28,992 nt of DNA from a virus, in the IMG/VR virus record IMGVR_UViG_3300033141_004873, positions 1-28,992 of that record; one strand, given 5' to 3'. The notes beneath the pieces are model-generated. The model saw nothing but the letters and a program-made list of their open reading frames with translations. It did no database searches and was not told where the DNA came from. A program made the translations under genes and the position numbers. Shown in pieces: positions 9,795 to 12,714 of the stretch; positions within the stretch are counted from its first letter, which is position 1; every line of letters begins with the position of its first letter.

Positions 9795-9926
9795 TTACTT
9801 GACAACTCCGGAAACTGTGCTAAAATCAGCCTTAACGATGGTTCCGGTACGAGCCGCAGCCTCAATAGCCGGAGCCTGGCGATCCGGGTTGCTGCGGACC
9901 CGAGATCCTTTTATTCCCGTGCCCAT
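9795..9926 (-). CDS. Small hypothetical protein between gpF and gpG (43 aa)
   Basis: An open frame of 43 codons starts at ATG 9926, overlapping the 3' end of the gpF-like gene by 16 bases, with AGGA eight bases upstream. It ends with TAA at 9795-9797, immediately before the gpG start. The product begins MGTGIKGSRV and is basic at the N-terminus and Ala/Val-rich at the C-terminus. The tight packing on both sides and the SD support translation. I do not recognise a family. Confidence 0.55.
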   Translation of the reverse strand: MGTGIKGSRVRSNPDRQAPAIEAAARTGTIVKADFSTVSGVVK

Positions 9927-11191
9927 ATCAGCTTTCCTGCCCTCTGGTTGTTTGCATACCCAAGCTTGCTCGTCGGGATCATTGTCCAGGCCTCCATGAT
10001 GCCCGATCTTACCTGTGCGACCATCACAATGGCCCGCTGCCTGTCCAATCTTACAGCCTTGACAGTGCGCTGCCTGAGTTCATATTTTCCGGTGCCCTTG
10101 TGCCTTTCGAAGCTGAGCCATACTTCAAATGGCTCTTCGAGCGCCTCCCGGATGAACGGCACGAAGGCAGAGCGATCCAGGGGCACGTGCTCCGCAAGCG
10201 TCTCAGCGTTTGCGAGGATATCGTAGCGAAATTGCCCGCTCCGGAATGAAAAGACTCTCTCCTTTGCACCCAGGATTCTCTCAAGCTCTGACCTCAATGC
10301 GGCTTTGGAGGCCAACATGGGCCCGATCTTGGCCCTCGGCTCGTCAATCCGGATCCTTTCCGGTCTGCCGTAGGTCTCCCAATCACCTGGGGTAAGGCGC
10401 TCCCATGCCTTTGTCCCCTGCGCCCGCCACTTGCTCATGACGTCCTGGGAAAGTTTCCTGCCCCACGCCGCCTCGCCCGGATTGTAGTCCCAGCCCGGGT
10501 CTATCCCCTTGGGCACCCTGTATATCTCGCCCGTATCCTTGTTCGTCCATTCATAATATTCCTTTCGCGGCGCCTTCTCCCTGATCGGGAACTCGCTATC
10601 TGCGAGCTCTTTGTGCAATCTTTCGACCTCACGGGCCGAATGTGATACGATGCCGCATTTTCACCCCCAACCGTTCGGCGGTGTGTGTGTCTTCCAGAAC
10701 TCGTGATCCCAGGGAAGCACGATGTTGTACCATGCCATGTGCTCTTCCCTGGGCTCTGCGGACCTGGAGGCCACGTAGCGCAAGTAGGGCCGAAGCTCGC
10801 GCGCCAGGGGATCGTTCATCTGCTGCCAGTGTCCCGCAGCATAGGCCGTGCTCAGGTTCGTGTTGAAGATCACGGCGGTGCGCCAGCCCCGCTTTCCCCT
10901 GTATTGCCAGCCGTGGCGCTGGACGATGCGGTCAAAGTCCTTCCTGAACTCCTCCAGGGTCGTTCCTTCCGCGATCCCTCTGTCCACGGCTGCCCGCAGG
11001 TCGCTCAAAAGCTCCGTCTTCATGGCCCCTGCTACCACAAAGCCCCTGGAGTGCATCCCCTGCCGCAGGTCCCGCCACGTCCTGGTCGGCAGGTTGACCT
11101 TGCTGCGAAAGAACTCGATCGCCTCTTCAAAGGGAACGTTTATGTATTGCGCGCTTCTCGTCATAAAGTTCAAAATCTCGTCACTCGTCAC
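9911..11191 (-). CDS. Head morphogenesis protein, Mu gpF-like, with in-frame TGA at a conserved Cys position
   Basis: Two open segments, 10661-11191 and 9911-10660, lie in one frame and together give 426 residues, the usual gpF length. The first (176 residues) contains FNTNLSTAYAAGHW and ends EFWKTHTPPNGWG; the second continues KCGIVSHSAREVERL and later has PKGIDPGWDYNPGEA. In the Mu gpF family PPNGW is followed by x-Cys-x-Cys, so the TGA at 10661-10663 sits exactly at the first Cys. A SECIS-like hairpin follows. It may be a nonsense mutation, a sequencing error or a selenocysteine codon. Start is GTG 11191, overlapping the portal stop; ATG 11164 is possible. The protein is a minor head protein linked to the portal. 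Confidence 0.8.
10622..10640 (-). promoter_or_regulatory. SECIS-like hairpin downstream of the in-frame TGA
   Basis: On the minus strand TTCGGCC pairs with GGTCGAA (seven pairs, one G-U) around the five-base loop CGTGA. The loop begins 27 bases after the TGA, and a G is the second loop base. Published bacterial SECIS models need a stable upper stem, a small loop with a G in the first two positions and a spacing of roughly 16-37 bases, and this hairpin fits. Such hairpins also occur by chance. Confidence 0.35.
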
Positions 11192-11205
11192 TCGTCACTC
11201 GTCGC
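11178..11205. repeat. Heptamer tandem repeat at the portal/gpF junction
   Basis: On the plus strand three perfect copies of TCACTCG occur at 11181-11201, with degenerate flanking copies. On the minus strand this is (GACGAGT)n and covers the portal stop codon and the gpF start, so the GTGA overlap is written by the repeat. A seven-base unit shifts frame if copy number changes. Confidence 0.85.
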
Positions 11206-12714
11206 TCCTTGCATTGCATCGAACCTCCCGGCCAGCTCGGCAAGGGTCATGGCCCGGCTCATGAGGTTGCCCAGTTCCTCCGGGTCCATGTCCTGGTATA
11301 TATCCAGCAGCCCGTCCCTGAATTCCTCCAGGGTGGCGGAGCGTTTGAGAAGGTCTTCGATCGGCGCCATCAGGGCGTCGAATCGGGCTGAGGACGCAGT
11401 TTTTTCTCCCAGTGCATATAAGATGTCGGCCGGAGAGTCGTCTTTCGCTCCAGGGCCGGATTTGAAAGCCTCGGCAAAGCCTCCGGGGGCCTCCGGGGAC
11501 GGTTCGCCCAGGTCGAAATCCCCCTCCTGGAGATTGTAGACCCGGCGGTAATAATCCCTGGTGAAGCGCAATCCCTGTTCGGTCAGGGTCTTGTCCCGCT
11601 CGGCCCGGTCTTTCTGGATGTCCTCTTCCTGGTAAAAGGTGAAGGCGGGCGCAGCGGCCCCCGCAAAATTAAGCTCCACCACGTATTTGAACAGCGTGTT
11701 CATGACCTGGCAGACCATGCGCTTGTCCATGTCCACGATGTCCTGGCGAACCTCCAGGTGCCCCTCGGTCGCTGCGTAAGATCCGCCCTTGTCGAGCTCG
11801 GTGGAAAGCGTCTGGCCCAGCACTGCCTTTGAGATCTCCCTGTTCGCCGCGGACACGAGCTTCTCGTAAATACCTGCACTTGATGCCTTAAATGCAGACT
11901 CTTTAAGTTCCACGCTCTCGTCGTCGTTGATCACGGCCACCGCGTCCTGCACCATGCTGACAAGCCGCGTGAGCAGCGCGGAGCGCTCCGTCTCGTTCGT
12001 TGCCCTCGGGACCTTTCCGATGAGCCAGGGCATGCCGTATTTTTCCGTGAATATGGCCCAGAACTTGAACCCGCCCTTTTTGAACGCAACGGGCCAGAAA
12101 CACCTTGCCAGGACCCGCTCGCCGTAAGGATTCTGGTAGCTTGCATGGTGCCGGGCCAGCAAGAACTTCCGTTTCGGCAGCTCTTCCCCCTGGATCATGT
12201 TGTCCCGGGAGAGGAACCTGAGCTTGTTTTCCGTGCTGAACACGAACCACTCAGGCGGCTTTCCTTCGACCCGCTCCGGCAGCCACAGCCCGTCCGAATG
12301 TGACCAGATTACTTCCAGGGCCGAGATCCCGAAAAACGGTGCGTCCAGGACTTCGCTGATGATCTGTCCCACGTCGATGCGGGAGAGGAGCCCCTCGATC
12401 GCCTCAAGGGCGGCCCTGTTGGCCCGCTTCGATCCTTCCTTTGCTTCCCCTATCTCCCATTCCTGGTTCAGGGTCCCGGATTTGCGAGACATGTAACAGC
12501 TCCACACGTGCGCGTCGGAAAGAAGCTGGCGGTACACGGGGAGGGTCTGGCCCAGTTTTTCGAGCACCGGGTCGGGATCCGGCAGATACGCGTAAAAACC
12601 CATCCAGTCGATGGTCCTCGAGCGGACCGCTATCTCACTGACCAGGCTTTCCGTTTCGCCCGGTTTTCTCTCGTCAAGCTCGATGAAGCGATTCTCGTTC
12701 AGCCAGAGTCTCAT
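11188..12714 (-). CDS. Portal protein (Mu gp29-like, DUF935)
   Basis: The 508-residue protein matches the DUF935 portal family of Mu-like phages. It has an N-terminal segment DPDPVLEKLGQTLPVYRQLLSDAHV, then WEIGEAKEGSKRAN, FFGISALEVIW near residue 126, and FTEKYGMPWLIGKVPRAT near residue 223. The C-terminal third (about 405-505) is less conserved. Portals form a 12-subunit ring at one capsid vertex through which DNA is packaged. The gene follows the terminase and precedes gpF in standard order. Start ATG 12714 has SD GGAGACC. The stop lies in a heptamer repeat. Confidence 0.92.
   Translation of the reverse strand: MRLWLNENRFIELDERKPGETESLVSEIAVRSRTIDWMGFYAYLPDPDPVLEKLGQTLPVYRQLLSDAHVWSCYMSRKSGTLNQEWEIGEAKEGSKRANRAALEAIEGLLSRIDVGQIISEVLDAPFFGISALEVIWSHSDGLWLPERVEGKPPEWFVFSTENKLRFLSRDNMIQGEELPKRKFLLARHHASYQNPYGERVLARCFWPVAFKKGGFKFWAIFTEKYGMPWLIGKVPRATNETERSALLTRLVSMVQDAVAVINDDESVELKESAFKASSAGIYEKLVSAANREISKAVLGQTLSTELDKGGSYAATEGHLEVRQDIVDMDKRMVCQVMNTLFKYVVELNFAGAAAPAFTFYQEEDIQKDRAERDKTLTEQGLRFTRDYYRRVYNLQEGDFDLGEPSPEAPGGFAEAFKSGPGAKDDSPADILYALGEKTASSARFDALMAPIEDLLKRSATLEEFRDGLLDIYQDMDPEELGNLMSRAMTLAELAGRFDAMQGATSDE

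Follow-up and report, generated by a model that had tools for sequence, protein, structure and literature searches.

The window, by which we mean the whole stretch of DNA analysed here, is a complete IMG/VR virus record of 28,992 bases without attached host sequence. Profile searches placed a Mu-like head module on its minus strand, comprising genes for the small terminase, large terminase, portal (PF06074), gpF, a virion morphogenesis/neck protein (PF05069), protease, decoration protein, major capsid protein (PF03864), and tape measure, with a Mu-type transposase and a DNA transposition protein encoded further along. Within this module the gpF gene lies directly downstream of the portal gene, its GTG start overlapping the portal stop by 4 bases (Table 1).

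A minor head protein gene with one in-frame TGA

The gpF frame carries a single in-frame TGA (codon 177 of 426, in the context PPNGWG-U-KC) and is otherwise open, such that readthrough yields a 426-residue protein. A sequence-only reading of this DNA had already taken the segments on either side of the TGA to be one gpF, and the readthrough product bears this out, matching Phage_Mu_F (PF04233), the nuclease-like PBECR2 domain (PF18810), and, over residues 5-425, phrog_220 (minor head proteins). Among NCBIfam models only a general gp7 model was relevant, and the window gpF scores below that model's cut-off. The UxC motif formed by the TGA and the following Cys codon sits near the end of the Phage_Mu_F domain, and gpF coding is conserved on both sides of the UGA. 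The PBECR2 domain is encoded beyond the UGA and would be produced only with UGA readthrough or a restart of translation.

The proposal that this TGA occupies a Cys codon of a C-x-C motif was confirmed by an alignment of 45 proteins (the window read with Cys, together with 44 Cys-type relatives), in which both Cys177 and Cys179 are invariant. Arg148, His151, Trp166, and His169 are invariant in the same alignment. Elsewhere in the window TGA acts as an ordinary stop, again as first read: it terminates 14 of the 22 minus-strand ORFs examined, and gpF alone among these has an internal stop, from which we conclude that the genetic code is standard.

Table 1. Coordinates of the gpF gene, its neighbor, and the features discussed in the text
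Feature	Position	Strand	Details
Mu-type portal protein (PF06074)	11188..12714	-	directly upstream of gpF
gpF/MuF minor head protein gene	9911..11191	-	426 codons, GTG start at 11191, TAA at 9911, one TGA
Phage_Mu_F (PF04233)	10649..10999	-	residues 65-181; 54.4 bits against a cut-off of 29.6
In-frame TGA, proposed Sec (U177)	10661..10663	-	first position of U-x-C
TGC, Cys179	10655..10657	-	second motif position; TGA in CxU and UxU relatives
SECIS-like hairpin TTCGGCC-CGTGA-GGTCGAA	10622..10640	-	7 bp stem, loop CGTGA at +28 from TGA
PBECR2 (PF18810), nuclease-like C-terminal domain	9923..10261	-	residues 311-423; 59 bits against a cut-off of 27.1

Recurrence of TGA at the C-x-C codons

We gathered 80 relatives by protein similarity alone, giving 64 distinct segments including the window and 18,451 codons in total. 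These segments contain 11 in-frame stops, eight of which are TGA at one of the two C-x-C columns, either column 177 (the window, L035, L036, and L045) or column 179 (L017, L031, L033, and L061); the other three lie at alignment ends. Homologues with Cys and homologues with TGA at the site, both of which had been suggested as worth seeking, are thus both on record. Exact pattern scans of a viral contig collection returned 31 matches to PNGWG-TGA-x-Cys (UxC), 21 of them in the gpF frame, and 16 to PNGWGC-x-TGA (CxU), of which 14 are in gpF. A scan for TGA-x-TGA (UxU) gave six matches, three in gpF. As controls in the same contigs, TAA or TAG at the first Cys gave seven matches and at the second Cys two, none of them in gpF, while a TGG-to-TGA change at the Trp two codons before the Cys, which takes a single transition, gave 25 matches, likewise with none in gpF.

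In each of the three UxU genes (L300, L301, and L302), the second in-frame TGA starts six bases from the start of the first. Over the region compared L300 resembles L302, and L301 apparently belongs to a clade distant from L300.

An ordinary nonsense mutation, a decaying prophage, or a sequencing error had been judged an equally simple explanation for the window's TGA. The contig does come from a public virus collection without reads, and one decayed gpF copy with a frameshift and a TAG is known elsewhere. However, the same codon is TGA, and only TGA, in dozens of contigs, a pattern that neither mutation nor error would lead one to expect, with no TAA or TAG and no Trp-to-TGA change in any of the gpF genes; the remainder of the window gpF is open, and the TGA is associated with a hairpin, described below. 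Recurrence of TGA alone at the two C-x-C codons, in company with the hairpin and in dozens of related genes that come from many different samples, removes the tie. Recurrence refutes mutation or error as a general account, and we hold it to be highly improbable. The decayed copy (L251/L271, G055:C6:114252-115437) has its gpF split between frames and its TAG at a non-Cys codon, with CKC intact; it is a decayed prophage and a useful contrast.

The downstream hairpin and its association with UGA

The seven-pair hairpin that had been noted downstream of the TGA, with loop CGTGA and G as the second loop base, is present. Taken alone it is modest, with p = 0.11 against a synonymous-codon null and dinucleotide-shuffle z scores of -2.16 for the local 26-mer and -0.70 over 49 nt, and on that account it is convincing only via the family. 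We searched the 51 nt after the codon for unbroken stems of at least 4 bp with loops of 3-7 nt, accepting only those whose loop starts 16-37 nt past the codon and has G at its first or second position. The distance and G rules follow published bacterial SECIS models. At E <= -6 kcal/mol, such a hairpin occurs in 20/21 UxC and 8/9 CxU genes and in 3/47 CxC genes (Mann-Whitney against CxC, p = 9e-11 for UxC and 5e-6 for CxU). With two distinct UxU genes included and a cut-off of -5.5, it occurs in 30 of the 31 distinct TGA genes versus 6 of 47 Cys genes, the Cys rows being scored at the better of two registers. As a caveat on these counts, the Sec rows and the Cys rows share ancestry and were not gathered in the same way. 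Together with the recurrence of TGA, this difference supports the earlier suggestion that the window gpF is a possible selenoprotein, and about 40 other sequenced relatives have UGA and a matching hairpin at the invariant-Cys site.

Loops in the TGA genes start at +17 to +28, and for several clades the hairpin is stronger than expected from synonymous-codon nulls (p = 0.005-0.03). Stem sequences vary by clade (e.g. L088, L089, L109, and L112). In the window's own register there are 11 distinct stems, among which three pairs show compensatory change (C-G to G-C or U-A); one of these changes is found in the window and another in L190. L001, which is the Cys relative closest to the window on the tree, has a nearly identical stem whose closing pair is mismatched and whose loop differs; the Cys relatives L003, L021, L024, and L030 each have the hairpin minus one inner pair. 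Such loss of pairs in close Cys relatives is as expected if the hairpin serves the UGA. Close relatives with an intact Cys codon and no conservation of the hairpin had been named in advance as a result that would tell against selenocysteine; Cys relatives of this kind do exist, and what they have lost is one or more of the hairpin's pairs.

In the UxU genes the hairpin lies at +22 (L300) or +20 (L301) from the second UGA and at +28 or +26, respectively, from the first. Since these distances fall within the single-UGA range, one hairpin might serve both UGA codons. By our search rules, the hairpin following the UGA is merely weak in one UxC gpF gene (L108/L045); it may represent a bulged SECIS or a hairpin that is being lost.

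We built a tree of 76 gpF proteins with both motif residues masked. It requires at least 15 changes between Sec and Cys, five of them forced by well-supported branches, and UxC, CxU, and CxC forms appear as close neighbors, for example L190 (UxC) with L030 (CxC) and L093 (UxC) with L114 (CxU). Only five phylogenetically independent pairs fall on supported branches; these run approximately 3:0 in the expected direction, which is not significant, and the association of hairpin with UGA is never reversed in them.

The UGA might alternatively be a programmed site of termination or readthrough, where the 176-residue product, a product restarted at TTG 10618, or both would be functional and the hairpin would modulate termination. 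The restart had been offered as another option in the sequence-only reading; the GAGGT seven bases upstream of the TTG is indeed present, although it overlaps the hairpin loop and 3' arm, and the downstream nuclease-like domain could be separately expressed. Against this, the TGA falls within the conserved Phage_Mu_F domain and not at a domain border, relatives that match only residues ~10-240 carry TGA too, and the alternative TGA two codons later in CxU genes, along with the lack of TAA and TAG, fits an amino-acid role. We give programmed termination very little credence.

Host machinery and a proposed selenoprotein form of gpF

A UxC scan of a collection holding one genome per bacterial or archaeal species gave 105 matches, only three of which are in gpF: one in Desulfobacteraceae (L190), one in Bryobacterales, Acidobacteriota (L223), and one in Nitrospirota (L232). 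Whether hosts possess sel genes had been raised as a check, and the answer is a partial one: selB and tRNA-Sec score above curated cut-offs in all three assemblies holding a UxC gpF, but the window phage's own host is unknown, and selA was sought only in the window, where there was no match. We do not treat the three sel-positive hosts as an enrichment. The gene selB is common in Acidobacteriota (104 of 149 sampled), and its presence is therefore a necessary condition and not a discriminating one. The phylum to which the Desulfobacteraceae host belongs was also scanned for CxU; 395 genomes yielded two matches (L246 and L247), both outside gpF frames.

On the Nitrospirota contig (L248 8637-16692, G003:C85), which comes from a MAG, a Mu-like prophage adjoins selB, and the gpF on this contig (L232) has UxC. 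This selB has host metabolic genes as neighbors and immediately borders the left end of the prophage, where genes for a repressor-like HTH protein and then an AAA protein of the MuB kind are found. We considered and rejected a phage-borne selB, as its neighbors place it beyond the prophage end, in the host's own DNA; its position does put phage and selB on one chromosome.

The UGA could also be read as Cys, through a suppressor tRNA-Cys(UCA) or a misacylated tRNA-Sec, leaving gpF an ordinary C-x-C protein. The other homologues always have Cys there, and some bacteria are known to have a tRNA-Cys with the anticodon UCA. Yet TGA is the normal stop of most window genes, and no other gene examined has one in frame; a suppressor needs no hairpin, whereas nearly every TGA gene has one; and tRNA-Sec is found in the three hosts. 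No tRNA gene was found in the window, and neither a tRNA-Sec nor a suppressor tRNA was found in 26 related loci. Reading as Cys thus appears very unlikely to us.

We consider it very likely that the window encodes the Mu gpF/MuF minor head protein in a selenoprotein form, with selenocysteine (Sec) at the UGA, a conclusion drawn from sequence and without protein-level evidence. Decoding as Sec is inferred from three observations, namely that UGA recurs at the C-x-C codons alone, that the hairpin accompanies it, and that selB and tRNA-Sec are present in the three host assemblies. Decoding by the host's Sec machinery is likewise an inference, given that neither a tRNA gene nor a selA match was found in the window. 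In the proposed mechanism, host SelB with Sec-tRNA(Sec) would bind the hairpin that closely follows the UGA in phage late mRNA, and the ribosome would insert selenocysteine at residue 177 in place of a stop. The predicted product would be a full-length gpF in which U-x-C replaces the usual C-x-C; the actual insertion of Sec remains inferred. As PBECR2 lies downstream of the UGA, production of this nuclease-like domain would depend on Sec insertion. Control of the nuclease is not the general reason for the UGA, given the TGA in relatives that match only residues ~10-240.

The function of the U-x-C pair is clearly less certain than Sec decoding; we infer that the two residues act together in redox chemistry or in binding a metal, within a minor head protein bound to the portal. 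Sec may replace one Cys, the other, or both, which points to thiol/selenol chemistry, and on this ground we regard a selenenylsulfide/disulfide-type couple as most likely; a metal site with the invariant His151 and His169 is possible as the main alternative. Searching the PDB by sequence and by fold, with a predicted model of mean pLDDT 78 and pTM 0.56, gave no informative match. Calling the protein a virion selenoprotein would rest by analogy on the portal-bound gpF/gp7 of other phages. SPP1 gp7, a MuF protein, is present at one or two copies per capsid, bound to the portal; the same source describes the MuF domain as one of unknown function (PMC5576092). We also hypothesize, tentatively and with less than even confidence, that Cys has repeatedly been swapped for Sec, even to UxU, in phages of Sec-using bacteria, that the pair acts as a selenenylsulfide/diselenide switch, and that assembly depends on host selenium.

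Bacterial selenoproteins with Sec/Cys pairs include the thioredoxin-like Sec.1 (CxU) and Sec.2 (UxC) and HesB-like proteins (PMC9312934). The gpF genes resemble these in having an in-frame UGA at the Cys of homologues, a hairpin within the coding sequence shortly after it, sel genes in the three host assemblies that hold UxC copies, and both UxC and CxU motifs. Unlike these cellular proteins, which are mostly presumed redox enzymes, gpF is a phage morphogenesis protein and may have Sec at either or both positions of one motif. In its profile score above cut-off, its gene directly after the portal gene, its C-x-C near the domain end, and a nuclease-like C-terminal extension as in MuF polymorphic toxins, it agrees with the Mu gpF/SPP1 gp7/MuF superfamily (PF04233; PMC5576092), in which, however, we found no Sec-containing protein in the literature searched. 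The glutathione peroxidases of the poxviruses molluscum contagiosum and fowlpox are also virus-encoded selenoproteins using host Sec machinery (PMC8310308), but these are captured eukaryotic antioxidant enzymes with a eukaryotic SECIS, whereas gpF is a head protein of a bacterial virus.

A search for reports of a phage selenoprotein (phage, prophage, Mu-like, head) found none, most subscription papers and preprints lying outside the search. Phages and viruses are absent from a 2022 list of prokaryotic selenoproteins (PMC9312934) and from a 2026 review, and the Sargasso and GOS papers make no mention of them. Novelty is likely but not proven, because coverage of the literature was partial. Lists of prokaryotic selenoproteins have been built from cellular genes, and no phage was found there. 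If our interpretation is correct, a phage structural or morphogenesis protein joins the known users of Sec, bacterial viruses borrow the host's Sec machinery, and standard gene calling splits gpF in two in such phages. The UxC, CxU, and UxU forms of an invariant C-x-C would provide a natural series with which to probe the role of the gpF/gp7 cysteines. The nuclease-like C-terminal domain, the CxU and UxU variants, and the wide spread of the feature lay beyond what had been seen in the sequence-only reading.
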